NCBI RefSeq assembly: GCF_019924045.1
Contig: NZ_JAHXBN010000028.1
Span: 1-64,000 of the forward strand
Source of the DNA: Dyadobacter fermentans
GTDB taxonomy: Bacteria > Bacteroidota > Bacteroidia > Cytophagales > Spirosomataceae
Length of the DNA stretch: 64,000 nucleotides
Direction: 5' to 3'
Below the pieces are notes generated by a model, which was not told where the DNA came from, did no database searches, and saw nothing but the letters and a program-made list of their open reading frames with translations. Of this stretch, positions 49,267 through 64,000 are shown in pieces. Position 1 is the first letter of the stretch; each line of letters opens with the position of its first letter. The position numbers were made by a program, and so were the translations under genes.

Positions 49267-49656
49267 ATGGATCTCACCGACAAGATAAAACAGATACTAG
49301 TTGACAAAAATATTACCCCGTCGCTCTTTGCCGACGAAATAGGGATTCAGCGATCAAGCATGTCGCATATACTTGCGGGGAGAAACAAGCCAAGTCTGGA
49401 TATGGTGCAAAAAATTGTAAAGCGTTTTCCCGACCTGGGCATCAGTTGGATCCTCGACGACGAGCCGCTGCCAGTAACGACTCCTGTGGCGGTTCCGGAA
49501 CCCGCCTTAGAATCGCGTAAAAAGGTAGTTTCCGCTCCGCAGCCCGCACAGCCGATTGTCGCCAAAGAGAAACCGGTCGTTTTGCCGGAGAAAAAGATCG
49601 AAAAAGTGCTTATTTTTTATTCTGACGGCACTTTTCAGGAATTTAAACAGGCTTAA
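49267..49656 (+). CDS. XRE-type helix-turn-helix protein
   Basis: This 129-residue protein has an N-terminal Cro/CI-like HTH (about 5-60, ILVDKNITPSLFADEIGIQRSSMSHILAGRNKPSLDMVQKIVKRFPDL) and a Pro/Val/Glu/Lys-rich C-terminus ending KVLIFYSDGTFQEFKQA, which looks like a small beta hairpin. It is a single-gene unit from a consensus promoter. It is the nearest regulator-like gene to the Sus locus starting at 49964, but nothing in the sequence links it to the 50-bp element there. Confidence 0.85.
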   Translation: MDLTDKIKQILVDKNITPSLFADEIGIQRSSMSHILAGRNKPSLDMVQKIVKRFPDLGISWILDDEPLPVTTPVAVPEPALESRKKVVSAPQPAQPIVAKEKPVVLPEKKIEKVLIFYSDGTFQEFKQA

Positions 49657-49725
49657 AAAGGAGCGATTGTAAAATTCAATAATCAGTAAGAACAGCCCTC
49701 CGCTGTCATATTAGGCTCATGTTCG

Positions 49726-49752
49726 TTTCGATGCCGGCCAGCGGCATCGAAA
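49726..49752. terminator. Hairpin downstream of the HTH gene
   Basis: TTTCGATGCCG and CGGCATCGAAA form a perfect 11-bp stem with a 5-base loop. The stem ends in A/T but a T run is short, so termination is likely but not certain. The remaining bases 49657-49963 show no gene. Confidence 0.6.
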
Positions 49753-49963
49753 ATTCGGAACGTATGACTATGACCGTCACTTTACCGTTTGAAACGTGAC
49801 GCCATGGAAAATCGCAGGCCGTGCCAAACTCCCCGCATTGAAGCGCAAAAGCGCGGCACCAACTTCACAAATGCAGTTACCACTTTAAGCTGCCGTTAAA
49901 TCTCGCGCAAGTTGGTCAGCGATAATTTAATTGTGTCTTACTCACAATTTTGGTAGCATACCG

Positions 49964-50013
49964 GACAGCACAGGATAGTATGGAATTCAAATACCGATAC
50001 TATTGTAAAAATG
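49964..50013 (+). promoter_or_regulatory. Shared 50-bp regulatory element, copy A (susC2 operon)
   Basis: This copy aligns without gaps to 55145-55194 and 59401-59450. Constant parts are GACAG, 2 bases, CAGGA, 22 bases, TAnTATTG (here TACTATTG at 49998-50005). Arms ATAGTAT (49975-49981) and ATACTAT (49997-50003) form a dyad. TAnTATTG resembles the -7 box TAnnTTTG with one mismatch, and no TTG stands at -33, so activation by a factor binding GACAG..CAGGA is plausible. A leader of about 215 bases follows. Confidence 0.75.
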
Positions 50014-50161
50014 ATATAATTCAAATCAATAATTGTACATATCAAGCATGGTTACTGGTATGTACTTCAAAGCCAAACATTTTGTCTGCCGGCAATATGT
50101 TTGAATTTTACTATCCGTTCCGGCCACTCCGGCCCTGATGTTCCACCCCAAACAGCTGCCT

Positions 50162-50197
50162 ATGGAAAAAATCAAGCATGAAACCCATTTTACTTAA
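50162..50197 (+). other. Possible 11-codon leader ORF before susC2
   Basis: ATG to TAA encodes MEKIKHETHFT, ending 30 bases before the susC2 start. A similarly short leader ORF lies before susC3. Expression is unproven. Confidence 0.25.
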
Positions 50198-50227
50198 TCA
50201 ATCTTTAACTATTCCAATCCTGAACGT

Positions 50228-53200
50228 ATGAATCAATCTCGACAAGTAAGATTCAATACCGGGCTGCGTCCGCTGCGAAAGCTGATGCTCGGCCAGGTAT
50301 TGTTCGGTGTTGCGCTTGCTGGCTTTTACCAAGCCCCGGCAACAGCAGCCTTTAAGAAGGACCCGATTATGGTGACCGCCGACCGGTCGCTGGCGGGGAA
50401 AGTTACCGATGAAAATGGCGCCGGACTCCCGGGCGTAAGTGTCATTGTGAAAGGTTCGAGCACCGGAACTGTAAGCGACGCTGAGGGCCGTTACACGGTC
50501 AATGTGCCTGAAGCAGGCAGCCCCGTTTTAGTTTTCTCTTTCGTCGGGTACGTACCAAAAGAGATTACAGTGGGAAATCAGACGTCTTTGGACGTTCAAT
50601 TAGCCGTGGATAACAAAGCATTGGAAGAAGTAGTGGTGGTGGGTTACGGGACCCAGCGCAAGCGCGATATTACCTCTGCTGTATCCAACATCAGTATGGA
50701 GGACATTGGTGAAGTCCCCAAATCAAACGTCACCCGGATGATCCAGGGCCAGGCCCCCGGGGTGATCATCAAACAGAAAAGCGGTACGCCGGGCCAGCAG
50801 TTCGAAGTAAAGGTCCGGGGAATCAGCTCCCTCGGAGCCGGCAGCGACCCGTTGTACGTCATCGACGGCTTCCCCGTCGGTATTTCTGTTGGTCAAAATC
50901 TCAACCCTAACGATATCGAAACTATCACCGTATTGAAGGATGCGGCTTCTACCGCCATTTATGGCGCTCGCGGTTCAAATGGAGTGGTTCTGATCACTAC
51001 GAAATCAGCCAAGGAAGGCAAAACGAGCCTCAATGTTTCCTTCGACTATGGTATTCAAAACGTTCCGGATTCCAGAAAAACCAAGGTATTGAATGGCCCG
51101 GATTTCGCGCAGTTCAAGAAGGAGGTATTCATCGGACGCTTCGTGCTCGACAAAAAACGGCAACCAACCAATGAGGAAATCCCCATTGATTTCCGAAACC
51201 CGGCAGACACCAAGTATTCTACCAACTGGTTTGACCTCATCCTGAACAACAACGCACCTTATAAGGATATAAACGTATCGCTGTCGTCCGGAAAGGGTCC
51301 CATCAAATCCATGGTTTCAATTGGATATTACAAAGAGGAAGGTGCGCTGAAATACACGGATTATGACCGTGCTTCCGTGCGCACAAACCTCGCCGGGGAC
51401 GTTAACAAATACATTTCGATGGGTGTAAACATCGCCGGAAGCTACTCGCGGTCGAGTCTGGCAGCTACTGATGGCCGCAGCGCATTAGTGGGTCTCACAC
51501 TTATCAGCGACCCGCGTTATCCTGCCTACGATCAGAAGGGAGACCTGATCCCGTACTACAATGGGGTAGGTGATATCTTCGGCTTTCCGAATCCATTGTA
51601 CTTGCTGAAAAACATTGACCGCGACCGCAATATCGCCGATGTACTCGCCAATGGTTACATCGATTTCAACATTGCCAAAGGCCTGAAATTCAGAACGTCC
51701 GTCAATGCGAAAATCAACTACAACAAGTACAAGGAGTACGTACCTTCGACGATCGGACTTGCCATCGCGACGGGCTCCAACGGTGCGCCTCCACGCATTG
51801 CGAGCGAACGCGACGACTCCGAAGAACTGCGCAACTACACCGCCGATCAACTGCTTACGTACAATGTGAATTTCGGAGAAAATCACCACCTGGACGCCAT
51901 GCTCGGCTATACTGCCCAGCAGGAAATCGTCAAAGGTTTGTACGGCTCCGGTAACACTTTCCCTGACGATCTCGCACCGTTCCTCGGCAATGCGACCATC
52001 CGTTCGTCCAACTCTATGGAGCGCAAATGGACTATGCTTGCTTACCTGGCCCGCCTTAACTACTCATTTAAAGACCGTTACCTATTCTCCGCTTCGTTCC
52101 GTCGCGAGGGGAGCTCGCGGTTCAGCGAAGGACACCAATTCGGTAATTTCCCTGCGGTGTCCGTCGGTTGGAGGCTTTCCGAGGAGCCATTTATTCCAAA
52201 AGCAGCCTGGCTGACCGACCTGAAACTGCGTGGTAGCTGGGGGATGACCGGCAACAACACCTACCAGGTAAGTGCCAACAATAACTTCGGCACAGGGCAA
52301 AACGCAGGTGACGACGGTAACTACGCCAGTCTTGCGTTCCTCACTTTGAACAATTATGTTTTCAATAACTCATTATCGATCGGTAAAACCGTAAACCGTT
52401 TTGCTAACCCAGAACTGACTTGGGAAAAGTCCAACCAACTAAACATTGGTCTCGACCTCTCCACATTCAATAACAGACTGATTTTCACGGCTGAATACTA
52501 CAAGAAGATCACCGACGACATGTTGCTGGGCTACAATATCCCCGCCGTTTCCGGCTTTACCTCGACGCTGAAAAACCTGGGCAAAGTGCAGAACCAGGGA
52601 GTAGAACTTGCGGCGAGCTATCGGATGAAAATCGGCCAGATCAATTTCAGGACCAATGCTAATATCACATTCAATCGCAGCAAAATCCTCGCGATTCGCG
52701 GACAGAACGACTTCATCCTCCAAGGAAGCCAGTACGGCGGATACAATATCCAGCAGGTGGGCCGACCGATCGGTATGATTTTCGGTTACAAAAAGCTCGG
52801 AATTTTTAACACGCAGGCGGAAATCGACGCTGCTCCGTTGCAGGAAGGTGCTGTACCCGGCGCCATGAAGTTTGCCGACTTGCATGGCGCACCCGATGGT
52901 GGCCCGGATGGAATCGTGTCTTACGACACCAAGGATATGACCGAAATCGGTAATCCGAACCCGAAATTTAACTGGGGATGGACCGTTGGCGTGGATTACA
53001 AGCGTTTCGATGTGAGCGTGTTACTGATGGGTGCCCACAAATTCGACATTTACCGCAACATCGAAGCTTCGACCATGAACATGGACGGCGTTTTCAATGT
53101 GTTGGAAAAAGCGAAAGACCGCTGGCGCTCCCCTGAAAACCCGGGCCCAAATCCGAATGCAAAGAACTCACAGGGTGGTACGGACTATTTCAAATGGTCA

Positions 53201-53461
53201 CGCGAGAGCAGCGAGCGCTATGTGTACGACGGAAGCCACACGTGGATCAAGAATGTGACGATCGGCTACACACTTCCCAAAGTAGACGGCATCCTATCCG
53301 ACGCCCGTGTTTTCGTAAATGCAGCTAACCTTCTGTTAATCACCAAATATCCGGGGAATAACCCCGATGCCGGTGTGCGCGGCGGAACGGAACTGAACAA
53401 CGACGACGAGTCGTATCCGGTGCCCAGAACGTTCTCAGTGGGTCTTAAAGTTAACTTCTAA
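50228..53461 (+). CDS. SusC/RagA-family TonB-linked receptor (pair 2)
   Basis: This 1077-residue outer-membrane porin has an unusually long basic leader before the export segment (MNQSRQVRFNTGLRPLRKLMLGQVLFGVALAGF). The carboxypeptidase-like domain follows (about 58-135, LAGKVTDENGAGLPGVSVIVKG), then the motif LEEVVVVGYGTQRKRDITSA, the plug (IQGQAPGVIIKQKSGTPGQQ, LYVIDGFPVG, ILKDAASTAIYGARGSNGVVLITTK) and a barrel ending KVNF. It shares its leader style (MNQxRQ) with susC3. Two bases separate its stop from susD2. The upstream 50-bp element ties it to the next two units. Confidence 0.95.
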   Translation: MNQSRQVRFNTGLRPLRKLMLGQVLFGVALAGFYQAPATAAFKKDPIMVTADRSLAGKVTDENGAGLPGVSVIVKGSSTGTVSDAEGRYTVNVPEAGSPVLVFSFVGYVPKEITVGNQTSLDVQLAVDNKALEEVVVVGYGTQRKRDITSAVSNISMEDIGEVPKSNVTRMIQGQAPGVIIKQKSGTPGQQFEVKVRGISSLGAGSDPLYVIDGFPVGISVGQNLNPNDIETITVLKDAASTAIYGARGSNGVVLITTKSAKEGKTSLNVSFDYGIQNVPDSRKTKVLNGPDFAQFKKEVFIGRFVLDKKRQPTNEEIPIDFRNPADTKYSTNWFDLILNNNAPYKDINVSLSSGKGPIKSMVSIGYYKEEGALKYTDYDRASVRTNLAGDVNKYISMGVNIAGSYSRSSLAATDGRSALVGLTLISDPRYPAYDQKGDLIPYYNGVGDIFGFPNPLYLLKNIDRDRNIADVLANGYIDFNIAKGLKFRTSVNAKINYNKYKEYVPSTIGLAIATGSNGAPPRIASERDDSEELRNYTADQLLTYNVNFGENHHLDAMLGYTAQQEIVKGLYGSGNTFPDDLAPFLGNATIRSSNSMERKWTMLAYLARLNYSFKDRYLFSASFRREGSSRFSEGHQFGNFPAVSVGWRLSEEPFIPKAAWLTDLKLRGSWGMTGNNTYQVSANNNFGTGQNAGDDGNYASLAFLTLNNYVFNNSLSIGKTVNRFANPELTWEKSNQLNIGLDLSTFNNRLIFTAEYYKKITDDMLLGYNIPAVSGFTSTLKNLGKVQNQGVELAASYRMKIGQINFRTNANITFNRSKILAIRGQNDFILQGSQYGGYNIQQVGRPIGMIFGYKKLGIFNTQAEIDAAPLQEGAVPGAMKFADLHGAPDGGPDGIVSYDTKDMTEIGNPNPKFNWGWTVGVDYKRFDVSVLLMGAHKFDIYRNIEASTMNMDGVFNVLEKAKDRWRSPENPGPNPNAKNSQGGTDYFKWSRESSERYVYDGSHTWIKNVTIGYTLPKVDGILSDARVFVNAANLLLITKYPGNNPDAGVRGGTELNNDDESYPVPRTFSVGLKVNF

Positions 53462-53463
53462 AA

Positions 53464-54972
53464 ATGACGAAGATGAAAAAAGCAACGATACTCGGAATCG
53501 CTCTGGCAATGTGCTTGTCGTCATGCAGCGAAGACTTTCTCAATCAAACCGACCCAACGAAAGTAAAGGTTGATTTGTTTTACAAAAATGAAGAACAGGT
53601 AAAGCAGGCTGTAAGCGGGGTTTACAGTCAGATTCAAGGGCTTACGAATACCGCATACCTGTTTGGTGAATTTCAAACGGATAACACCACAGTCGATCTG
53701 AACCCTTCCGACAGGGGCGGAGCGGGTGGCTGGGAAGCTTTCGAATTCAGCACCGTCAACTCGGGTAATGGCGAGATCGCCAACCTCTGGAACGGTTTCT
53801 ACGCCGCCATGTACAACTGTAACCTCACATTGGAGCGGATGGTAAATGCTACCATGACCGACAATGGCCGGAAAGAAGCCGAAGGCCAGCTCAAATTCCT
53901 TCGTGCGTACATGTATTTCCATCTCGTTCAGTACTTTGGCGACGTAGTCATCGTCACATCCACGCTGGAAATCCCCGATCCCGCCTTCGATCTCGTGCGA
54001 TCGCCTCAAGCCGATGTGTGGGCGCTAATTGAAAAGGACCTGAAAGATGCCGCAGCTGCTTTGCCTGCCAAATATGCCGCCGCCGGTGATATTGGCCGTG
54101 CAACCAAAGGAGCTGCGCTGAGTTTGTTGGGCAAATCCTACCTTACGCAGAAGAAGTATGCCGAAGCAGTAACAACCCTGAAAGAGGTTACCACCCTGGG
54201 GTATGCGTTGAATGCGAACTACGCCGATAACTATGCTATCACCAAGAAAAACGGCATCGAATCGATTTTCGAAATCCAATACATGGGTGATAACGACCTT
54301 GGAGAGTGGAGCAACTTCGAATACGTGTTCGCGCCAAGGGTGTCAAAAGGTGCGGTAACAGGCTTCTCCGCAGGCTCTAATGGCGGCCGCAATGTCCCTA
54401 CCAACGACATCATGGCCGCCTACGAGAAGGGTGATTTGCGTAAGGATATTTCCCTGAAACCCAATTTCAAATTGGATACCACCACCTACCACGTGCCTTA
54501 TATTGTCAAATACAACTACCCGCACACGATCGTAAACCGTACCAATTCCAACTGGCCGGTGCTGCGCTACGCCGACGTCCTGCTGATGCTCGCGGAGTCC
54601 ATCAATGAGCAATCCGGCCCGACAGCCGAAGCGCAGGGTTATCTGAATCAGATCCGGAAACGGGCCGGTCTTGCCGACCTCACTATCGCCGACAAGGTCG
54701 CATTCAGAACGGCTGTTTTGAATGAAAGAAGGTTGGAGCTGGCATTCGAAAACCACCGCTGGTTTGACTTGAAAAGGACCAAAACACCGGCTGAGTGGGC
54801 GGCATTCATGAATGCACACGGAGCACAGGAACGCGCGAAGCCAACAGTTGCCAGGGGAAATGTCCCATTCAATACGACGGATTATGTCTTTACAGAGAAT
54901 GAATATTTCTTGCCGTTGCCTGCGCCACAAATACTGATCAACCCCAAACTAACCCAAAATCCGGGTTATTGA
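53464..54972 (+). CDS. SusD/RagB-family outer-membrane lipoprotein (pair 2)
   Basis: This 502-residue lipoprotein partners SusC2. Its leader ends LSSC (Cys21 from ATG 53464; an ATG at 53473 would also work). The mature start SEDFLNQTDPTKV, the N-terminal TPR-like helices (LRAYMYFHLVQYFGDVVIVT) and the C-terminal RagB/SusD domain (LNQIRKRAGLADL, VLNERRLELAFENHRWFDLKRT, ending LTQNPGY) are all present. It is translationally adjacent to susC2. Confidence 0.95.
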   Translation: MTKMKKATILGIALAMCLSSCSEDFLNQTDPTKVKVDLFYKNEEQVKQAVSGVYSQIQGLTNTAYLFGEFQTDNTTVDLNPSDRGGAGGWEAFEFSTVNSGNGEIANLWNGFYAAMYNCNLTLERMVNATMTDNGRKEAEGQLKFLRAYMYFHLVQYFGDVVIVTSTLEIPDPAFDLVRSPQADVWALIEKDLKDAAAALPAKYAAAGDIGRATKGAALSLLGKSYLTQKKYAEAVTTLKEVTTLGYALNANYADNYAITKKNGIESIFEIQYMGDNDLGEWSNFEYVFAPRVSKGAVTGFSAGSNGGRNVPTNDIMAAYEKGDLRKDISLKPNFKLDTTTYHVPYIVKYNYPHTIVNRTNSNWPVLRYADVLLMLAESINEQSGPTAEAQGYLNQIRKRAGLADLTIADKVAFRTAVLNERRLELAFENHRWFDLKRTKTPAEWAAFMNAHGAQERAKPTVARGNVPFNTTDYVFTENEYFLPLPAPQILINPKLTQNPGY

Positions 54973-54997
54973 TCGACTGCAGTGCTTTCAATGTACA

Positions 54998-55026
54998 GGA
55001 GGGGCATTCAATATGTCTCTCCTGTT
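54998..55026 (+). terminator. Weak hairpin after susD2
   Basis: ACAGGAG and CTCCTGT pair around 15 bases and are followed by TAAATTTT. It is a modest stem at the expected end of the susC2-susD2 transcript. Confidence 0.45.
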
Positions 55027-55144
55027 AAATTTTATAACTAATCCGCGAAACATATCGTTATGAAACTAATAATCAATTCAATACCTCGAATGCGCTTTAT
55101 ATAATCCTTTTTAGAAAAACATGAATATTTTTCATTTATAACAA

Positions 55145-55194
55145 GACAGCACAGGATACTATTGACTTCGATGCATTTTAGTATTGTATGATTG
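55145..55194 (+). promoter_or_regulatory. Shared 50-bp regulatory element, copy B (cytochrome/DUF1501 unit)
   Basis: This copy has GACAG, CAGGA and TAGTATTG at the same spacing as copies A and C. The dyad here is ATACTA (55156-55161) with TAGTAT (55179-55184). Relative to copy A the central G-C pair has become C-G, a compensated change that argues the symmetry is real. The predicted leader to GTG 55241 is about 48 bases. Confidence 0.75.
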
Positions 55195-55240
55195 CCGAAT
55201 ATCCCCGCCGATATTCCTGAACCACTAACCCCTTGAACTT

Positions 55241-57601
55241 GTGTTACTCCAAGCAACCGAAACTTTCTGGCTTTGGCAATTTTTAGGACGATTGCACCCT
55301 TTACTGGTCCATTTTCCCATTGGACTTCTCTGCATTGCATTGCTTTTTGAACTCATCGACTGGAAGCATAAATCGACCGTCCTGCGCGACGGCACGCGCA
55401 TTATCACGTGGGTGAGCGCAGGTAGCGCGGTGCTGGCCGTTGCATTCGGCCTGCTGCTCGCCAGCTCCGAAGATTCCAGCGGTACCAATCTCGAAATCCA
55501 CCGCTGGGCCGGAATTGCCACGATGGTACTTTCACTCGTCACCGCATTTACATTGCGTTCCGGTAACAGGAGTCTCTTCCGCGGGCTGCTGCTTACCACC
55601 GTTTTCGGCGTTTCCTTTGCAGGCCATTATGGCGCCATGCTAACCCACGGCGAAGATTACCTCACGGGCGTGCTGCCCGGTGCCGATAAAACGGTGGAGC
55701 CGGAGGGCGAGGCCGAAGCTGATTTTGTGCTTACCAACAATGGCGCATTAACCCCTGAACAAGTACAAAACCTCAATGTGGAAGTCAGGACGATCCTGGC
55801 TCACAACTGTTACAGCTGCCACAGCGAAACCAAAATGAAGGGAGAACTGCGGCTCGACAGCAAAGACGCTATTATGAAAGGCGGCGAGCACGGCGTTGTG
55901 GTTGTGCCGAGCCATCCCGACAAAAGTGAACTGATCCGCCGGATTTCACTGCCCAAAGGACATAAGGAGGCGATGCCTACCAAAGGGAAGCGCCTGACGG
56001 AGAAGGAGGTAAAGTTGCTCCAATTCTGGATCGAAAAAGGTGCTCCGTGGCCCGACGGGAAAGAGAAAAGCATTTACCGCGTGGCCGAACTGGCGCCGCG
56101 TACGCCCGAGGTGCCCACTGCAACGGCCGATCTCAACAAGCCTGTGGACCTGTTTGTGAATGCCTATTTCCAAAAGAACAAAGGAAGCTGGAAACCCGTC
56201 GTGGACGACCGCACTTATATTCGTCGTGTTTACCTCGACATCATCGGACTGCTTCCGCCTCCGGAAAAGGTCGATGCATTTGTAGCGGATACCCACCCCG
56301 ACAAGCGTGAGTTACTTGCCAAAGAGCTCCTTTCGCAGAACGACGCGTACGCTCAGCATTGGATGACGTTCTGGAACGATGCCCTCCGCAACGACTACGA
56401 CGGAACGGGTTACATTACCGGAGGACGGTTCGGTATTTCCAAATGGCTTTACGCTAGTTTGCTGGATAACAAGCCCTACAATTGGTTCGTGAAAGAGCTG
56501 ATCAGCCCCAATAAGGAATCCGAAGGCTTTATAAAAGGTATCAAATGGCGCGGAACGATCAATTCCAGCCAGCGTACCGAAATGCAGGCAGCCCAGAATG
56601 TGGCCCAGGTGTTTTTGGGTCTGAACCTTAAATGCGCTTCCTGCCACGACAGTTTCATCAGCGACTGGAAACTAGCCGACGCTTACGCATTTGCCAACAT
56701 TTTCGCGGATACCCTGCTCGAAATCAACCGTTGCGACAAGCCTACGGGCAAAATTGCTGGAACACGCATTCTCTACCCGGAACTGGGCGAAATCGAAGTA
56801 AATGCAAGCACTGAAAAACGCCTCCGCCAGTTGGCCGATTTCCTCGTGCAGCCGAAAGACGGAAGACTATACCGCACGCTCGTGAACCGTGTGTGGGCAC
56901 AGTTGATGGGGCGCGGCATTGTGGAGCCGGTGGATGCGATGGACAATTTGCCTTGGAGCCAGGACCTGCTCGACTGGCTGGCATCCGACTTTGTGACGAA
57001 TGGCTACGATGTCAAAAAGCTCATCTACACGATCGTCACTTCGAAGACCTACCAGTTGCCTTCGACATCGGTGAAAGAGGCCGGGGATATTATGGCGAAC
57101 GATTTCAAGTTTACCGGCATGGTGCGCAGAAGACTTACCGCCGAGCAGTTCGCCGACGCGATCAGCACGAGCTTCACACCGATGTATGCCGACACAGCGC
57201 TTGCATTGAAGAAGCTTCCGGAAGATATCCGGTCGCGGCTGCCATTTCCGCGCGCGGCGTTTGTGAAGAACGATCCATTCCTTACTTCGCTCGGCCGCCC
57301 GAACCGTGAGACGGTGAGTACCGGTCGTACTTCGCAGGCGAACCTGCTCCAAGCATTGGAACTTACGAACGGCTCGAAATTCACCGAAACGCTCAAAGCG
57401 GGATCGAAGATCTGGAAGTCGCAATACCCGACCTCCGACTCACTCGTAACGGCACTTTACCGGAAGGCATTGGGGCGTTCGCCGATACCAAAAGAGCTCG
57501 CTGCCGCGAAGAAAATCCTCGGTACGACACCAAGCGAAGAAGGCATTCAGGACCTGGTTTGGGCGATTGCACTCGTACCCGAGTTCCAGCTGATATATTA
57601 A
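55241..57601 (+). CDS. Membrane diheme cytochrome with PSCyt1-DUF1549-DUF1553 domains
   Basis: This 786-residue protein starts with GTG. Three to four membrane helices (about 8-135, LHPLLVHFPIGLLCIALLF and following) anchor it. A planctomycete-type cytochrome c domain (about 175-275) carries CYSCH at residue 190. DUF1549 (about 300-500) contains a second heme motif, CASCH at 465, and DUF1553 (about 525-786) ends VPEFQLIY. Such fusions occur widely in Planctomycetes and in Bacteroidota beside DUF1501 genes; their reaction is unknown. Electron transfer during processing of an imported polymer is inference. Confidence 0.88.
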   Translation: MLLQATETFWLWQFLGRLHPLLVHFPIGLLCIALLFELIDWKHKSTVLRDGTRIITWVSAGSAVLAVAFGLLLASSEDSSGTNLEIHRWAGIATMVLSLVTAFTLRSGNRSLFRGLLLTTVFGVSFAGHYGAMLTHGEDYLTGVLPGADKTVEPEGEAEADFVLTNNGALTPEQVQNLNVEVRTILAHNCYSCHSETKMKGELRLDSKDAIMKGGEHGVVVVPSHPDKSELIRRISLPKGHKEAMPTKGKRLTEKEVKLLQFWIEKGAPWPDGKEKSIYRVAELAPRTPEVPTATADLNKPVDLFVNAYFQKNKGSWKPVVDDRTYIRRVYLDIIGLLPPPEKVDAFVADTHPDKRELLAKELLSQNDAYAQHWMTFWNDALRNDYDGTGYITGGRFGISKWLYASLLDNKPYNWFVKELISPNKESEGFIKGIKWRGTINSSQRTEMQAAQNVAQVFLGLNLKCASCHDSFISDWKLADAYAFANIFADTLLEINRCDKPTGKIAGTRILYPELGEIEVNASTEKRLRQLADFLVQPKDGRLYRTLVNRVWAQLMGRGIVEPVDAMDNLPWSQDLLDWLASDFVTNGYDVKKLIYTIVTSKTYQLPSTSVKEAGDIMANDFKFTGMVRRRLTAEQFADAISTSFTPMYADTALALKKLPEDIRSRLPFPRAAFVKNDPFLTSLGRPNRETVSTGRTSQANLLQALELTNGSKFTETLKAGSKIWKSQYPTSDSLVTALYRKALGRSPIPKELAAAKKILGTTPSEEGIQDLVWAIALVPEFQLIY

Positions 57602-57787
57602 ATGCAGGATACAGATAAAACGTATTTGAAATATCAAATGAATAAGACTTTAAATACATACACAACATTTACAATGTACATAAAGAATTAAATTATTAGT
57701 ATTATTTGTAAATATTATAAGTATTTAAAGTATAAAAAGTATATAAATATAATTTACTGAATTACAGTCATTTAAAATAAATAAGCA
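57602..57787. other. AT-rich spacer between the cytochrome and DUF1501 genes
   Basis: These 186 bases are very AT-rich, with repeated AAGTATA-like words around 57710-57760. There is no gene, no full copy of the 50-bp element and no strong terminator, so the two genes are probably co-transcribed. Confidence 0.4.
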
Positions 57788-59215
57788 ATGAATATCCAAT
57801 GGAATAGGAGGGAGTTTCTGCAACGCGCCAGCGCCGCTACAATGGCTGCTTTGGCGGCAGGAGCCCCCATATCAAACCTGCTAACCTCATGCCGGGGCAA
57901 GGCGGGAGCCAATTCTTCGGCGGACACAGTGATACTTTTATGGATGGCCGGCGGTATGGCGCATACCGAAACTTTCGACCCGAAAGCCTACACGCCGTTC
58001 GAAAAAGACATGGAGGGTAACCGCGTTTTGAGCACCTTCAAATCGTTCCCGACGAAGCTGGACGGCATCCATTTCTCGGATGGCTTGCAGTCGATAGGGC
58101 AGGTGATGGACAAGGGAACACTCATCCGCTCGTACGTCGCAGCCGACATGGGCCACATCCTGCACTCACGCCACCAATACCACTGGCACACCTGTTACGA
58201 ACCACCGCAAACGGTAGCTGCGCCGCATATCGGCTCATGGATCGCCAAGGAGCTGGGGCCAAAAAATCCGGTGATCCCCGCATTCATTGACATTGGCCAG
58301 CGGTTCACGGTAGGTGAAGCCGAAGAGCTGAAAGCATTTCACACGGCCGGTTTCCTGGGCAACGAATTCGGGCCATTCTTCATTCCCGACCCTAGCCAGG
58401 GCCTCGAAAGCGTGCGCCCGCCCGTAGGTATGGATGCGAAGCGATTCGAACGCCGGAACCAATTGTACAATGAGTTGATCAATAATAGTCCGGTAGGAGA
58501 GTTCGGCAGCGATTACCAGCGCGAGTCGCTGAAACGCTCTATGGAACAGGCCTACGCATTACTCAACTCGCCGGAGTCGAAAGCATTCGATTTGAGTACG
58601 GAGCCTAAAAAGAGCTACGACATTTACAATACCGGCCGCTTCGGACTCGGCTGCCTGCTCGCCCGGCGGTTGACGGAGCAAGGAGCGCGCTTCATAAGCG
58701 TCACCACCGAGTACGAACCGTTCAAGGGTTGGGACACGCATGAAAATGGGCACACCCGCTTGCAGGATATGAAGAAACAGATCGACGGTCCAATTGCCCA
58801 GCTCATTAAAGACCTCGATGAGAAAGGCCTGCTCGACCGCACGATGGTTGTACTCGCGAGCGAATTCAGTCGCGATATGATGGTGGAAGGCCGCCCGGAT
58901 GCCAAAGTGAAGGAGCAGGTTGCGCAGCCCGATATCCTTTCCGACCTCAAATTCTACGGCATGCACCGCCATTTCACCGACGGCTGCTCAATGCTGATGT
59001 TCGGTGGTGGCATTAAAAAAGGCTTCGTCTACGGCAAAACCGCCGACGAACGTCCCTGCAAGACCATTGAAAACCCCGTGAAGGTGGATGGCATTCACCA
59101 GACGATCTATCATGCATTGGGCATCCCACCGGATACCCAATATGAAATCGAGAAGCGGCCGTTCTATACAACACCTGACGGCAAGGGGCTCGCAGTGAAA
59201 GAACTGCTCGTTTGA
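57788..59215 (+). CDS. DUF1501 protein with Tat signal and lipobox
   Basis: This 475-residue protein has a twin-arginine signal (NRREFLQRASAA, residues 6-17) and a lipobox-like LTSC at about 32-35, so it is folded before export and probably lipid-anchored. The body matches DUF1501, a member of the alkaline phosphatase/sulfatase-like superfamily (VILLWMAGGMAHTETFDPK, SRHQYHWHTCYEP, VTTEYEPFKGWDTHENG, LASEFSRDMM). His and Asp residues in these blocks suit a metal site. Reaction unknown. It is paired with the upstream diheme protein, as DUF1501 genes usually are. Confidence 0.88.
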   Translation: MNIQWNRREFLQRASAATMAALAAGAPISNLLTSCRGKAGANSSADTVILLWMAGGMAHTETFDPKAYTPFEKDMEGNRVLSTFKSFPTKLDGIHFSDGLQSIGQVMDKGTLIRSYVAADMGHILHSRHQYHWHTCYEPPQTVAAPHIGSWIAKELGPKNPVIPAFIDIGQRFTVGEAEELKAFHTAGFLGNEFGPFFIPDPSQGLESVRPPVGMDAKRFERRNQLYNELINNSPVGEFGSDYQRESLKRSMEQAYALLNSPESKAFDLSTEPKKSYDIYNTGRFGLGCLLARRLTEQGARFISVTTEYEPFKGWDTHENGHTRLQDMKKQIDGPIAQLIKDLDEKGLLDRTMVVLASEFSRDMMVEGRPDAKVKEQVAQPDILSDLKFYGMHRHFTDGCSMLMFGGGIKKGFVYGKTADERPCKTIENPVKVDGIHQTIYHALGIPPDTQYEIEKRPFYTTPDGKGLAVKELLV

Positions 59216-59229
59216 TTTTACCCATTTGA

Positions 59230-59266
59230 TCCGCCGGAACGTGCTGATAACCAGCTTTCCGGCGGA
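59230..59266 (+). terminator. Hairpin after the DUF1501 gene
   Basis: TCCGCCGGAA and TTCCGGCGGA form a perfect 10-bp stem around 17 bases, 14 bases past the stop. The T run after it is poor. Beyond it, 59267-59400 shows no gene. Confidence 0.65.
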
Positions 59267-59400
59267 CATATTTCTTGCTACCTCACCTGCTTCGTATCCT
59301 ATATTGTGGACCGTCGCCTCGCTGCGGACGGATGGCGTCTCTATGCCAGATATAAGATATGTCCAAAAAACTCATGTTAATTAAATATTAATCAAAACCA

Positions 59401-59450
59401 GACAGAGCAGGACAGTCTGTTCTCGCATTCATTCTACTATTGCATAAATG
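59401..59450 (+). promoter_or_regulatory. Shared 50-bp regulatory element, copy C (susC3 operon)
   Basis: This copy has GACAG, CAGGA and TACTATTG (59435-59442) in register with copies A and B. The dyad is weaker here (four of seven pairs kept). CAG recurs three times at 5-base steps near the left end. A leader of about 300 bases separates it from susC3. Confidence 0.72.
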
Positions 59451-59657
59451 TTACTTTAAGCATGAATAATTGTCTTTTATGCGTCATAAAGACATTTATT
59501 TCTTAGAGTACTCCAAAATCTTCATCAACGATAGATCTGCCAGCTTTCAGGCGTGTTTACATGCAGGAAAGCCATCCGTTTCGTGATCAGACGACACCGT
59601 TTTTTACATACCTAAACACAGCTTTTCCCCAATCCCGACAATTATTCACTTAAACCG

Positions 59658-59690
59658 ATGACTATGAGAATAAAAAGCTTAACCGATTAA
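59658..59690 (+). other. Possible 10-codon leader ORF before susC3
   Basis: ATG to TAA encodes MTMRIKSLTD, 61 bases before the susC3 start, paralleling the short ORF before susC2. No other gene is seen between 59451 and 59751. Confidence 0.22.
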
Positions 59691-59751
59691 CCCCGTCACC
59701 CGGGCGTTTTATACGATGCTCTGGGACCTCTGCTAATTACTAAATCTAAAA

Positions 59752-62700
59752 ATGAAGCTTATGAATCAATTTCGACAATCCCCTTATTACGGCCGATTGA
59801 ATTCGATCCTGAAACTGTCCGTGGGCCAGGCGCTTATCGGTGCAGCTTGCGGGCTCAGTGCAGTAGCCGGCAATAGTTTCCATCTTAACCCGCTGGTTGT
59901 AAGCACCAACATTATCGCCGACCGGACGATCAAGGGAAAGGTAACCGACGACACCGGTGAGAAACTGCCGGGTGTGAGCGTAGTACTCAAAGGCACTACC
60001 ATCGGAACGGTGTCCGATGCGGACGGGGTGTACTCCATCAACGTCCCCGATAGAGGCGGTGTCCTCATTTTCTCTTCCGTCGGGTTCCTTACGCAGGAAG
60101 TTCCCCTCGGAGCTGCGTCAACCGTGGATATTAAACTCGCTACCGATGCCAAGGCACTTAGCGAAGTGGTTGTAGTGGGTTATGGTAGCCAGTTGAAAAA
60201 AGAAATTACAGGTGCGGTGCAAACCGTTAAAAGCGAGGAGCTGAAAGATATTCCGGTATCGCAGGTTACTCAAAAGCTACAAGGACGTCTCGCCGGCGTG
60301 CAGATCAACCAGACCACCGGTAAGCCGGGGCAGGGGATGTCCGTTCGTATTCGCGGCCAGGTATCGGTAACAGCCGGTAGCGACCCGCTTTATGTGATTG
60401 ACGGTTTCCCGATAACCGGCACCATCGGCCAGATGAACCCTGACGAAATCGAGGATATTACCATTCTGAAAGATGCTGCATCGACGTCCCTTTACGGGTC
60501 ACGCGCGGCCAACGGCGTTGTATTGATCACCACCAAACGCGGTACTCCGGGCAAAATGGCGGTAAGCTTCAACGCCTACGCGGGTATTCAGAAGGTGCCG
60601 ATGAGAGGTCGTGTGAAAATGCTGAACGCCGAAGAATTCGCGCAGTTCAAAAAGGAGATGTATGAAGATGAAAATAAAGCGGTACCCGAAGAGTTTCAAG
60701 ATCCATCAAAGTATCGCGGCAAAAACAACGACTGGTACGACGCATTGCTTCGTACTGCGCCTATCCAAAGCTACAACCTGACCGTCAGCTCCAACAAGGA
60801 GAACATGCGTACATCGCTCGTGGCAGGGGTATTCAACCAGAAAGGGGTCGTGCTGAACAATAACTACAAGCGCTATTCATTGCGTATGAACACCGAGTAC
60901 GATATTTCGAATAAGGTGAAAATCGGGTTCAATGTGGCGCCGCAATTTGTCTATGACAATACCCCGAGAACGGATGGTGACCGCGGTACGGGCGTCCTTT
61001 TCAATGCATTGCACACCTGGCCGATCATGCCGATTTACGATGCGAACGGGGAGCTTACCAAGTTCAACACATTCCCAAGCAGCACAGGTAACATCTTCAA
61101 CTATCCTAACTGGGTGCGTGCTGCCAATGAGCTGACAAACGAGACGAAGATCAACAAGTTGCTAGGTAACACCTACATCCAGTACAACCCGATCAAAGGT
61201 CTTACTTTGAAATCGACATTGAATGTGGAAATGGAAAGCAACAAGTTCTTCTTCTTCAACCCGTCGACAGCTACCAGCTCGATCAACGTTCCGATCCCGA
61301 CCACTGCCGTTTCGATCCGCCAGAACTATCAGAACTTCTCATGGCTGAACGAAAACCTGGCAACTTACAGCCACAGCTTCAACGAAAAACACAACTTTGA
61401 GTTATTGGCTGGTTTTACACAACAACGTTTCCGCCAGGAGTTCGACCGTATTACGGCCAACACCTATACCGACGACCGCCTTCCGACAATCCAGGGTGCG
61501 ATCAACATCGACCGTGGCGGTTCATTTAACGTGAATGGTATCTCAGGTTCCAACACTTTCAACGGTGCTAACGAATGGGCGCTGATGTCTTACATTTCAC
61601 GTTTGACTTATAACTACAAAGGCAAATACCTCTTCACTGCCGCTGTTCGTGCGGATGGTTCTTCCCGTTTCGGTTCCGACAACCGCTGGGGTACATTCCC
61701 TTCGGCATCTGTGGGCTGGGTCATTTCGGATGAGAACTTCATGCAGTCGATTCCGAAAGTGTCATTTGCCAAAGCACGCGCCAGCTACGGGGTGATCGGG
61801 AACAACAACATCGGTAACTACACCCAGTATGCATTGGTTAATAACACTACCAATGCGGTTTTCGGGAGTACAGTAGCCACCGGTGCGCAGGTAACATCCT
61901 TGTCCAACAGCAACCTGGGCTGGGAAACAACCAAGCAGTTTGACGCCGGTCTCGATGTGGGTCTCCTCAACGACCGCATTCAGCTGATCTACGATTTCTA
62001 CACCAAGCGGACCACCAACTTGCTTTACGCGGTTCAGGTTCCTCAGGAATCGGGTTTCTCCAACTACAATGATAATATCGGCGAGATCAAATTTTGGGGA
62101 CACGAAGTATCGTTGACCACCCGTAACCTGGTGGGCAAATTGAAATGGACTACCAATGCCAACATCTCGATCAACCGCAACAAGGTGATGGAACTCGCAC
62201 CCGGCATCGACCGCGTGTATGGTTCTTTTCACATTACACAGGTAGGCCGCCCATTCGGCCAATTTTATGGCTTGGTAAAAGAAGGCTTCTATATGAACAA
62301 GGAGGAGTTGGCCAGCAGCGCGATCATCCCGGGCCGTTCGGCTATTGGTACCATCAAGTTCAAGGACGTGAACGGCGATGGCGTGATCACCAACGGTGGC
62401 GATGCCGACGACCGGACGATCATAGGAAATCCGTTCCCGAAATTCACTTACGGTCTGACCAATACATTGAGCTACGGTGGATGGGATCTATCGATCACCG
62501 GATCCGGCTCGCAGGGTAACCAGCTTTGGGTACGTCACCTTTACAGCACGGCTAACCTCGACGGTGTATTCAACATGGTGGCAGGTGCCAAGGATCGTTT
62601 CCGTGTGAAAAACGGCGTGAACCCGGTAACCGGCGTTGTGGAAGCTCAGACGGTAATTACCCCGGGCAAAGGAATGTACGGTGCTACCAACAACGGTGGT

Positions 62701-63006
62701 AACTACACCGGTGTGGAACGCGACTGGAACAGCTCTCACTTCCTTGCCAACGCCTCTTACTTTACGCTCAAAAATATTACACTGGGCTACAATCTGGGCG
62801 GTATCAACAAGTTTTTCAAGTCGGCCCGTCTGTACGCAAGCGTTCAGCAAGTGTATGTCTTCACCAAATATTGGGGCGGACCTAACCCTGAAACAAGCGC
62901 CCAGGGCGACGGACAGGGAGATGGCGGTAACCTTAGCCAGGGTGTGGATCTTTCCAACTATCCGGTACCACGTACATGGACACTCGGTTTGAACCTCAAC
63001 TTCTAA
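59752..63006 (+). CDS. SusC/RagA-family TonB-linked receptor (pair 3)
   Basis: This 1084-residue outer-membrane porin is a paralogue of susC2. Its leader MNQFRQSPYYG, starting at the second ATG (59761), matches the MNQSRQ start of susC2, so 59761 is a good alternative start. In order: the carboxypeptidase-like domain (IKGKVTDDTGEKLPGVSVVLKG), LSEVVVVGYGSQLKKEITGA, the plug (LQGRLAGVQINQTTGKPGQG, LYVIDGFPITG, ILKDAASTSLYGSRAANGVVLITTK), and a barrel ending LNLNF. No STN domain is present. It is paired with susD3 after 39 bases. Confidence 0.95.
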   Translation: MKLMNQFRQSPYYGRLNSILKLSVGQALIGAACGLSAVAGNSFHLNPLVVSTNIIADRTIKGKVTDDTGEKLPGVSVVLKGTTIGTVSDADGVYSINVPDRGGVLIFSSVGFLTQEVPLGAASTVDIKLATDAKALSEVVVVGYGSQLKKEITGAVQTVKSEELKDIPVSQVTQKLQGRLAGVQINQTTGKPGQGMSVRIRGQVSVTAGSDPLYVIDGFPITGTIGQMNPDEIEDITILKDAASTSLYGSRAANGVVLITTKRGTPGKMAVSFNAYAGIQKVPMRGRVKMLNAEEFAQFKKEMYEDENKAVPEEFQDPSKYRGKNNDWYDALLRTAPIQSYNLTVSSNKENMRTSLVAGVFNQKGVVLNNNYKRYSLRMNTEYDISNKVKIGFNVAPQFVYDNTPRTDGDRGTGVLFNALHTWPIMPIYDANGELTKFNTFPSSTGNIFNYPNWVRAANELTNETKINKLLGNTYIQYNPIKGLTLKSTLNVEMESNKFFFFNPSTATSSINVPIPTTAVSIRQNYQNFSWLNENLATYSHSFNEKHNFELLAGFTQQRFRQEFDRITANTYTDDRLPTIQGAINIDRGGSFNVNGISGSNTFNGANEWALMSYISRLTYNYKGKYLFTAAVRADGSSRFGSDNRWGTFPSASVGWVISDENFMQSIPKVSFAKARASYGVIGNNNIGNYTQYALVNNTTNAVFGSTVATGAQVTSLSNSNLGWETTKQFDAGLDVGLLNDRIQLIYDFYTKRTTNLLYAVQVPQESGFSNYNDNIGEIKFWGHEVSLTTRNLVGKLKWTTNANISINRNKVMELAPGIDRVYGSFHITQVGRPFGQFYGLVKEGFYMNKEELASSAIIPGRSAIGTIKFKDVNGDGVITNGGDADDRTIIGNPFPKFTYGLTNTLSYGGWDLSITGSGSQGNQLWVRHLYSTANLDGVFNMVAGAKDRFRVKNGVNPVTGVVEAQTVITPGKGMYGATNNGGNYTGVERDWNSSHFLANASYFTLKNITLGYNLGGINKFFKSARLYASVQQVYVFTKYWGGPNPETSAQGDGQGDGGNLSQGVDLSNYPVPRTWTLGLNLNF

Positions 63007-63045: not shown

Positions 63046-64000
63046 ATGAAAACTAAATATATAGCAGCGTGGTTTCTGGCAGTGGGGCTGACGAGCAGTT
63101 GCGGGGACAAGTTCCTGACTGTTAACCCGGAAACCGCATTGAGTTCCAACAACTTCTTTACTTCTGAGAACGATTTCAAGCAGGCGGTAAACGCGGCTTA
63201 CGAACCGTTCCGTCAAATGTTCAACGAGCGTGCCTGGATTTTGGAGGAAATGCATTCCGACAATACCTACTACGCCCGTAACAAACTGTACGGTGCGGTG
63301 GACCCTACGGAAAACGTTGCGGATTTCGCGATTCCGACGGCTAACGGCATTACTGCCAACGACAACGTACTGGTGCAGTACCGCCTGAACTACCGGATCA
63401 TCGCCCGCGCGAACCAGATCATCGCATTAATTGACGGGGTGAATTTCGACGCGGCTTCCAAGGGGAACCTGAAAGGCCAAGCGCTCTTCCTGCGTGCGTT
63501 TGCTTATTTCGACCTCGTTCGTCTTTTTGGTAAAGTACCTCTTCACCTGGTACCAGCAACAGGTCGTGACGATGCGCCTGTCCCATTGTCGACGACCGAA
63601 GAAATTTATGCACAGATCGAGAAGGATGCGAAAGAAGCGATCACCGGGCTTCTGGATAAGTCCAAACAAGAGGCTGGACGTGTTACTTCGGGCACAGCTA
63701 GAATGTTGCTGGCGAACCTCTACATTACCCAGAAAAAATGGGCGCTGGCCGAGCCATTACTGAAAGAAATCGTAGCTAGCGGTCAATACGCATTGATGCC
63801 TGATTACAACGATGCATTCTCGACCACGACGGGCAACAAAAACAACAAGGAGTCGCTTTTCGAGATCCAGTACATGGAAGGGTCGTCGGGCTACAACGGT
63901 AACCAGATTTATCGCTTCATTCCGTCGCCTATCACTGCTGCCGAAATCGCGCCGATTACCGGCACCTCCAACCCGCAGCCGACTTCGCAGGAAAGTAACA
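63046..64000 (+). CDS. SusD/RagB-family lipoprotein (pair 3), cut by the window end
   Basis: The frame is open from ATG 63046 to the last base (318 codons). The leader MKTKYIAAWFLAVGLTSSC gives a lipobox with Cys19, followed by GDKFLTVNPETALSSNNFFTS, the SusD helical core (GQALFLRAFAYFDLVRLFGKVPLHL) and ESLFEIQYMEG. The C-terminal RagB/SusD half lies outside. It is the expected partner of susC3. Confidence 0.92.
   Translation, partial: MKTKYIAAWFLAVGLTSSCGDKFLTVNPETALSSNNFFTSENDFKQAVNAAYEPFRQMFNERAWILEEMHSDNTYYARNKLYGAVDPTENVADFAIPTANGITANDNVLVQYRLNYRIIARANQIIALIDGVNFDAASKGNLKGQALFLRAFAYFDLVRLFGKVPLHLVPATGRDDAPVPLSTTEEIYAQIEKDAKEAITGLLDKSKQEAGRVTSGTARMLLANLYITQKKWALAEPLLKEIVASGQYALMPDYNDAFSTTTGNKNNKESLFEIQYMEGSSGYNGNQIYRFIPSPITAAEIAPITGTSNPQPTSQESN

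Follow-up and report, generated by a model that had tools for sequence, protein, structure and literature searches.

Local rhamnose catabolic regulons that include the gene rhaEW have been described for regulators called RhaR, which in that account are of the AraC, DeoR and LacI types, the DeoR-type ones recognizing direct repeats of 10-11 bp and that of Bacteroides being of the AraC type (Rodionova et al., 2013, PMC3870299). The text of that study never mentions GntR, Dyadobacter or Spirosoma, and in the part of it available to us no PSCyt/DUF1501 targets appear. Regulators of the AraR type join a GntR helix-turn-helix (HTH) to a LacI-type effector domain and control sugar utilization, usually from palindromic sites (PMC4494728), while the SusCD loci of Bacteroides belong to regulons of hybrid two-component systems (HTCS) and SusR, whose direct-repeat motifs have periods of 21 bp and 67-77 bp, respectively; FucR of Bacteroides is a GntR-family sugar regulator (PMC3878776). 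In Verrucomicrobia, PSCyt/PSD (DUF1549/DUF1553) proteins are suspected of a role in carbohydrate use, their function being called unknown (He et al., 2017, PMC5615132). Here we describe a window of 64,000 nucleotides from Dyadobacter fermentans, a member of the family Spirosomataceae (contig NZ_JAHXBN010000028.1, positions 1 to 64,000), in which a 50-bp element precedes the transcription units of a locus encoding, in this order, SusC1, SusD1, the cytochrome PSCyt_a, DUF1501_a, SusC2 and SusD2. We propose, with a probability of roughly 0.64, that the copies of this element are operator-promoters that place their units in a rhamnose (6-deoxyhexose) regulon; sigma-A would read them together with a RhaR-like regulator of the GntR/LacI type bound at -33. 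Unlike the HTCS and SusR regulons, the locus would depend on a one-component GntR-type regulator; unlike the usual GntR-family site, the repeat is a head-to-tail one of 10 bp at a fixed distance from a -7 box; and the same domain combination as in Verrucomicrobia here shares a regulatory element with rhamnose genes. Neither the element nor a GntR rhamnose regulon of Spirosomataceae was described in the literature searched, which left out RegPrecise and most subscription journals.

A previous sequence-only reading of the window had reported three gapless copies of the element, each pointing toward the gene it precedes and all lying in otherwise unrelated sequence, and the alignments agree on every point. 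The copies start at positions 49964, 55145 and 59401, all on the plus strand and oriented toward the downstream gene, and are identical in 26 of 50 aligned positions; when the three intergenic regions were dinucleotide-shuffled 30 times and compared at all offsets, the top triple had 15-18 identical positions. The frame then given, GACAG-N2-CAGGA-N22-TAnTATTG, occurs exactly at these three places only in the genome of 8,001,404 bases, with no match in the backward control. When up to three mismatches were allowed, the window held three matches against 0.10 expected, and the genome held three exact matches, one with one mismatch, none with two and 16 with three, the backward control giving 10. 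A dispersed genome-wide motif was rejected on the lack of any two-mismatch match elsewhere in the genome. The single one-mismatch site turns out to be a fourth copy; it lies at contig positions 64642-64683, 642 bases past the end of the window, so that the locus comprises four element-bearing units and not the three first proposed, all of which stand. By a sequence model built from 33 sites, copy 1 (49964..50005, plus strand), which precedes SusC1 and shows the tandem half-sites and 18-base spacer described below, scores 30.5 bits, copy 2 (55145..55186, plus strand, before PSCyt_a) 28.3 bits and copy 3 (59401..59442, plus strand, before SusC2) 33.2 bits, the box being TACTATTG in copies 1 and 3 and TAGTATTG in copy 2. 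The copies are alike and close together, as remnants of duplicated upstream DNA without common regulation would be. We regard that origin as extremely improbable and set it aside, since the boxes are kept across the genus while spacers and flanks are unrelated, and the design is found again at rhaEW, which is on another contig, and in other genera. E. coli-type promoters, at 10 against an expected 11.0, and known structured RNAs, for which Rfam gave no match at gathering scores in 49600-59800, were also set aside.

The element consists of a 10-bp tandem repeat of CnnGAYAG (GACAG-nnCAG-GAYAGT), 18 bases and the box TAnTATTG; the half-site thus occurs twice, head-to-tail, one helical turn apart. 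This repeat contains the core noted before and is absent as a direct repeat from the earlier description. Its anatomy was taken from 72 distinct sites of Dyadobacter loci that were picked with up to three mismatches, so that their conservation is partly a matter of selection. Columns 2, 4, 8-12, 35, 36, 40 and 41 are invariant and there is little information in the 18-base spacer. Two C positions 5' of the chosen frame are conserved as well, in 68 and 59 of the 72 sites, and their conservation is unexplained by selection. Among direct-repeat offsets of 3-12 within the 17-bp box, offset 10 stands out with a column correlation of 0.94 (5 column pairs), that at offset 5 being 0.71 (9 pairs), whereas inverted symmetry is weak at any centre (0.35 or less) and the box is not the palindrome usual for the GntR family. 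No HTCS/SusR-type period of 21 bp or 67-77 bp was seen in the element, nor do the 20 bases flanking it on either side hold a second conserved copy of the box, the 67-77-bp distance not having been tested. With the gap between the boxes left free from 8 to 28 bases, the pattern matched 109 times across 48 Dyadobacter genomes, with one site counted twice. All 108 distinct sites, which come from 47 of the 48 genomes, have a gap of 18, the control gave none, and flexible spacing was therefore rejected. As read from these sequences, the element with its tandem repeat and fixed spacing is conserved across the genus while the spacer drifts.

Sigma-A promoters of Bacteroidota carry TTG at -33. In the 72 sites this position is occupied by the conserved box, as the sequence-only reading had held, and TTG at -33 was found in none of them at spacings of 17-25 and in two at 16, partly by construction because the conserved box covers these columns. 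The same reading's comparison of the core with the -7 box of the phylum was likewise borne out: TAnTATTG in Dyadobacter, and TAnTTTTG in several other genera, are of the sigma-A -7 type TAnnTTTG (PMC9723704). Rigid spacing together with a replaced -33 element is the geometry expected of an activator-dependent sigma-A promoter, and it is from this geometry that we infer activation rather than repression. A dimeric RhaR-like regulator with a GntR HTH and a LacI-type effector domain would bind the two CnnGAYAG half-sites standing in for the -33 element. On the right sugar signal, probably rhamnose or its product, it would position sigma-A RNA polymerase on TAnTATTG, 18 bases downstream. The cell would then jointly switch on rhaEW-rhaI, the two SusCD pairs, two PSCyt/DUF1549 operons with their DUF1501-type partners and an operon for a PVC-type heme protein and TIM-barrel proteins.

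An activator or an alternative sigma factor had both been suggested, and the evidence favors the former acting with sigma-A. An extracytoplasmic function (ECF) sigma factor that reads CAGGAYRGT as -35 and TAnTATTG as -10, in an alternative promoter without any operator, would also require two boxes at a rigid distance, and elements before ECF-sigma genes in five loci (L135, L136, L139, L199 and L037) are compatible with its autoregulation. We nevertheless consider it improbable: the downstream box is the sigma-A consensus in variant form and reads TAnTTTTG itself at several sites of other genera, the ECF-type motif of Flavobacterium has CGT in its -10 region (PMC9723704) where the element has TAnTATTG, the upstream box is a tandem repeat, and Pfam detects no ECF sigma gene in the Sus locus of the window or beside rhaEW in L134.

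The sigma-A operator-promoter reading owes its sugar to sites outside the window. The 8.0-Mb genome has six strong sites (25-33 bits; next best 14.2 bits), of which four belong to the Sus locus. A fifth, C35:444810, precedes a second PSCyt1/DUF1549/DUF1553 gene. The sixth, C9:708451, precedes rhaEW, which encodes a bifunctional rhamnulose-1-phosphate aldolase/dehydrogenase (TIGR02632 above cut-off) and is followed by a rhamnose-isomerase-like gene, rhaI (TIGR02629, scoring 500 bits where the strict cut-off is 647). A pattern derived from the Sus-locus sites alone was what first led to the rhaEW site. Because the sites outside the locus precede rhaEW-rhaI and the second PSCyt1/DUF1549/DUF1553 gene, the regulon points to rhamnose; it comprises the four local units and these two, the unit away from Sus and DUF1501 genes marking it as a probable rhamnose regulon. 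The regulon foreseen earlier, two SusCD pairs with a cytochrome and a DUF1501 protein, was right in kind and too narrow. The full-genome search gave no random occurrence of the motif, and its sole strong site away from Sus or DUF1501 genes is the one at rhaEW.

Within Dyadobacter, the element marks the starts of units. Eighty loci around DUF1501_a homologues were scanned, 30 of them from this genus, in which the element was counted if it had up to four mismatches and lay no more than 450 bp from the annotated start. It was found upstream of the PVC-type heme gene in 23 of 23 loci, of SusC2 in 20 of 23, of SusC1 in 17 of 20 and of PSCyt_a in 17 of 29, and before unit-internal genes in none (SusD, 0/42; DUF1501_a, 0/30; TIM-barrel genes, 0/35). 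Only two of 115 other genes had it, in L037 and L041, where the site lies between DUF1501_a and SusC2 and the loci were counted as SusC2 misses; in L037 it precedes an ECF-sigma gene, behind which come FecR and, in the place expected for SusC2, a large open reading frame (ORF).

In other Spirosomataceae, rhaEW is the commonest target. One search of the family matched 31 of 101 genomes, with three matches in the backward control, and another found strong sites in 38 of 150. The latter yielded 23 rows outside Dyadobacter, nine of them from the training alignment, and 15 of the 23 are annotated: ten lie before rhaEW, two before SusC and one each before a GH106 alpha-rhamnosidase, a 3-keto-disaccharide hydrolase/isomerase and an ECF sigma gene, with nine of the 15 in the training alignment. 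A less circular comparison used the 300-bp upstream regions of 93 loci from outside both Dyadobacter and the training set and, as threshold, the 95% level of 488 control genes. Nine of 15 rhaEW upstream regions exceeded it (Mann-Whitney p = 2e-8, a test that takes related genomes as independent), or nine of 14 without the locus fetched for the element. So did SusC2 in 7 of 18 cases, SusC1 in 6 of 25, PSCyt_a in 13 of 49 (five of the 13 being Larkinella with a nearly identical site), the PVC-type heme gene in 3 of 10 and rhaI in 2 of 11. The corresponding counts were 0/49 and 0/24 for DUF1501, 0/38 for SusD, 0/25 for PSCyt_b, 0/9 for a rhaB-like kinase and 1/45 for GntR. A distant SusC class reached 5 of 8, which is not independent, as all five are in element-fetched loci and the other three gave none. 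A relaxed Spirosoma-type regular expression found one intergenic sequence only, in two loci (L078 and L268), and the GTARGTATAGGAAAGTT-type sites before SusC1 come from weight-matrix scoring alone. Sites thus precede catabolic genes, rhaEW-rhaI here and rhaEW in other genera, as in a rhamnose regulon.

Across the phylum, 12 of 395 genomes had a match at E <= 0.001, namely this one and 11 others, ten of which belong to two genera of one other family; one of the two looks like Flavobacterium, and it is the source of the eight matches before SusC. Outside Spirosomataceae, the 12 matches include eight before SusC, one at rhaEW, one at a gene that appears sulfatase-like by eye and two unassigned. 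The rhaEW and sulfatase-like sites occur in a single genome (G502), with GntR divergent from rhaEW and a 27-bit site at a GH78-sulfatase gene near the sulfatase-like one. Alpha-rhamnosidase genes (GH78, GH106) also lie downstream of the element in other genomes (L137, L159 and L290). The eight SusC copies, which belong to apparent pectin loci, and the matches at BNR-, 3-keto-disaccharide- and ECF-type genes would fit an element serving a broader signal, such as several plant-cell-wall sugars, with the rhamnose genes as one part only. We find this very improbable, given just six strong sites in an 8-Mb genome and rhaEW at 10 of the 15 annotated rows outside Dyadobacter. In two loci of the other family (L286 and L288, g66) the element stands before SusC, and in L286 pectinesterase and apiosidase genes were found by Pfam.

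The candidate for the rhamnose regulator is a 339-amino acid protein encoded behind rhaI (G000:C9:712126-713145), with a GntR HTH and a LacI-type effector domain (PF00392 and PF13377 above cut-off), as in AraR-type regulators; its HTH is related to that of AraR (4egy). Of 17 Dyadobacter genomes, 15 have a site at a distance of 3.6-4.2 kb from the GntR gene, and near the GntR genes of the other two (G028 and G064) none was found at E <= 0.01; at four such sites (L134 and L141-L143) rhaEW itself was observed. The GntR homologue stands directly before the element and rhaEW in one genus (g25) and about 1 kb before them in another (g39). In a third (g55) it immediately precedes the element and SusC, and in a fourth (g41) it is about 3 kb from an element at GH106. 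In five Spirosoma loci (L054, L055, L058, L091 and L101) it is divergent from SusC1-SusD1-PSCyt_a-DUF1501_a-PSCyt_b-DUF1501_b-PSCyt-SusC2, and in L078 from PSCyt_a, while S. telluris (L068) has the order GntR, rhaEW, PSCyt_a in two pieces, DUF1501_a, PSCyt_b, DUF1501_b, PSCyt and SusC2. Sixteen of the 40 loci centred on GntR homologues carry a rhaEW, rhaI or rhaB-like kinase gene as well, and GH106 alpha-rhamnosidase genes lie within PSCyt_a loci of three genomes (L043, L092 and L097). These neighborhoods tie the DUF1501 module to rhamnose independently of the motif. The recognition-helix residues, SRDT in Dyadobacter and SKGT or AKGT in Spirosoma, seem to parallel the sequences CAGGAY and TAGGAA, a correspondence that may reflect a single evolutionary event.

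The DeoR-type RhaR motifs are themselves direct repeats of 10-11 bp, so that another winged-helix protein is possible as the binder. The general case, in which a DeoR-, AraC/HTCS- or XRE-type protein binds the element and controls the rhamnose genes, also draws on the AraC-type RhaR of Bacteroides (PMC3870299) and on an HTH_3 ORF upstream of copy 1 whose relatives occur near the locus in several Dyadobacter. It appears unlikely, with a small chance of being right: a GntR protein was found in 16 of 17 rhaEW neighborhoods (ten were fetched for the GntR gene, and six of the other seven hold one), AraC, DeoR and LacI families are all missing from the 25 most frequent Pfam families of these neighborhoods (the remaining 50 families being outside that list), and the HTCS period is 21 bp (PMC3878776).

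Several observations weigh against a GntR-controlled rhamnose regulon. GntR homologues occur in 142 of 150 genomes of the family, against 38 with strong sites, so that their presence alone does not discriminate, and no GntR gene is listed within about 5 kb of those rhaEW loci of genus g57 that were inspected. Sites of the GntR family are usually palindromes, direct-repeat exceptions being known, as for the MocR-type members (PMC4494728, PMC5320631). PSCyt_a lacks the element in 12 of 29 Dyadobacter loci (L037, L041-L047, L049-L051 and L072) and lacks a site at the level used in 36 of 49 cases in other genera. Neither rhaEW nor GntR is listed in two 20-kb stretches around the other-family sites before SusC of apparent pectin loci. 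Finally, the ECF-sigma genes of the five loci named above have the element, or a weakened version of it, in front of them. FecR follows the ECF-sigma gene in L135 as it does in L037, and these genes are possibly a second regulatory layer for some SusCD pairs.

The operator shared with rhaEW, together with rhaEW and alpha-rhamnosidase genes in PSCyt/DUF1501 loci elsewhere, gives the PSCyt/DUF1501 proteins a concrete substrate class and suggests that the cytochrome/DUF1501 group helps in the use of rhamnose-containing material. More tentatively, it is possible that rhamnose-type sugars brought in by the two SusCD pairs are oxidized in the periplasm along a dedicated route made up of the PSCyt1/DUF1549/DUF1553 cytochromes, their DUF1501 partners, the PVC-type heme protein and the TIM-barrel isomerases. 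One GntR/LacI-type regulator, through a tandem-repeat operator replacing the -33 element, would commit the cell to it along with cytoplasmic RhaI/RhaEW. DUF1549/DUF1501 modules, described as of unknown function in 2017 (PMC5615132), thereby gain a testable role. Dyadobacter is environmental and cultivable, so that a simple test of the substrate class is possible, and the element might serve as a sugar-responsive promoter in a group for which genetic tools are scarce.

The genes of the locus all lie on the plus strand and were assigned by Pfam. SusC1, a TonB-dependent receptor (50228..53461), and SusD1 (53464..54972) are followed by a terminator-like hairpin of 13 pairs (54995..55025), from a hairpin scan that overall did no better than chance (13 found, 13.6 expected). 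PSCyt_a (55241..57601) has the domains DUF2231-PSCyt1-DUF1549-DUF1553 and two CxxCH motifs, in keeping with the diheme cytochrome named earlier. DUF1501_a (57788..59215), which had been called Tat-exported, begins with MNIQWNRREFLQRAS, a start that by eye is indeed Tat-like (twin-arginine translocation); the closest DUF1501 proteins, 97-99% identical, are from D. jiangsuensis, D. soli, D. beijingensis and two further Dyadobacter records. SusC2 (59752..63006) precedes SusD2 (63046..64000), which is truncated by the end of the window (full gene, L022:47-1558). The fourth copy lies 3' of SusD2 and of its terminator-like hairpin, read by eye, and is followed by the gene for the PVC-type heme protein, which has 898 amino acids and matches TIGR02603 above cut-off, then by two xylose-isomerase-like TIM-barrel genes and a gene for a 412-amino acid protein without Pfam match. 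About 300 bp upstream of copy 1 lies the HTH_3 (XRE-type) ORF of 129 amino acids (49267-49656), possibly a local regulator; its tblastn relatives occur near the locus in several Dyadobacter and were not seen beside rhaEW. In the second PSCyt unit (L144:6810-13080, G000:C35), the cytochrome gene is followed by genes for a 484-amino acid protein with a Tat-like start and a 724-amino acid protein. In three loci of another genus (L154-L156, g53), a GACAGTTCAGGAGGGTTA-type variant lies about 245 bp upstream of a BNR/sialidase-like gene. In genus g57 (L151:5203-7097), the element precedes a gene for a fused 3-keto-disaccharide hydrolase/xylose-isomerase-like protein, followed by a gene used as GH106-like reference, and the fusion hints at a keto-sugar step in the regulon.

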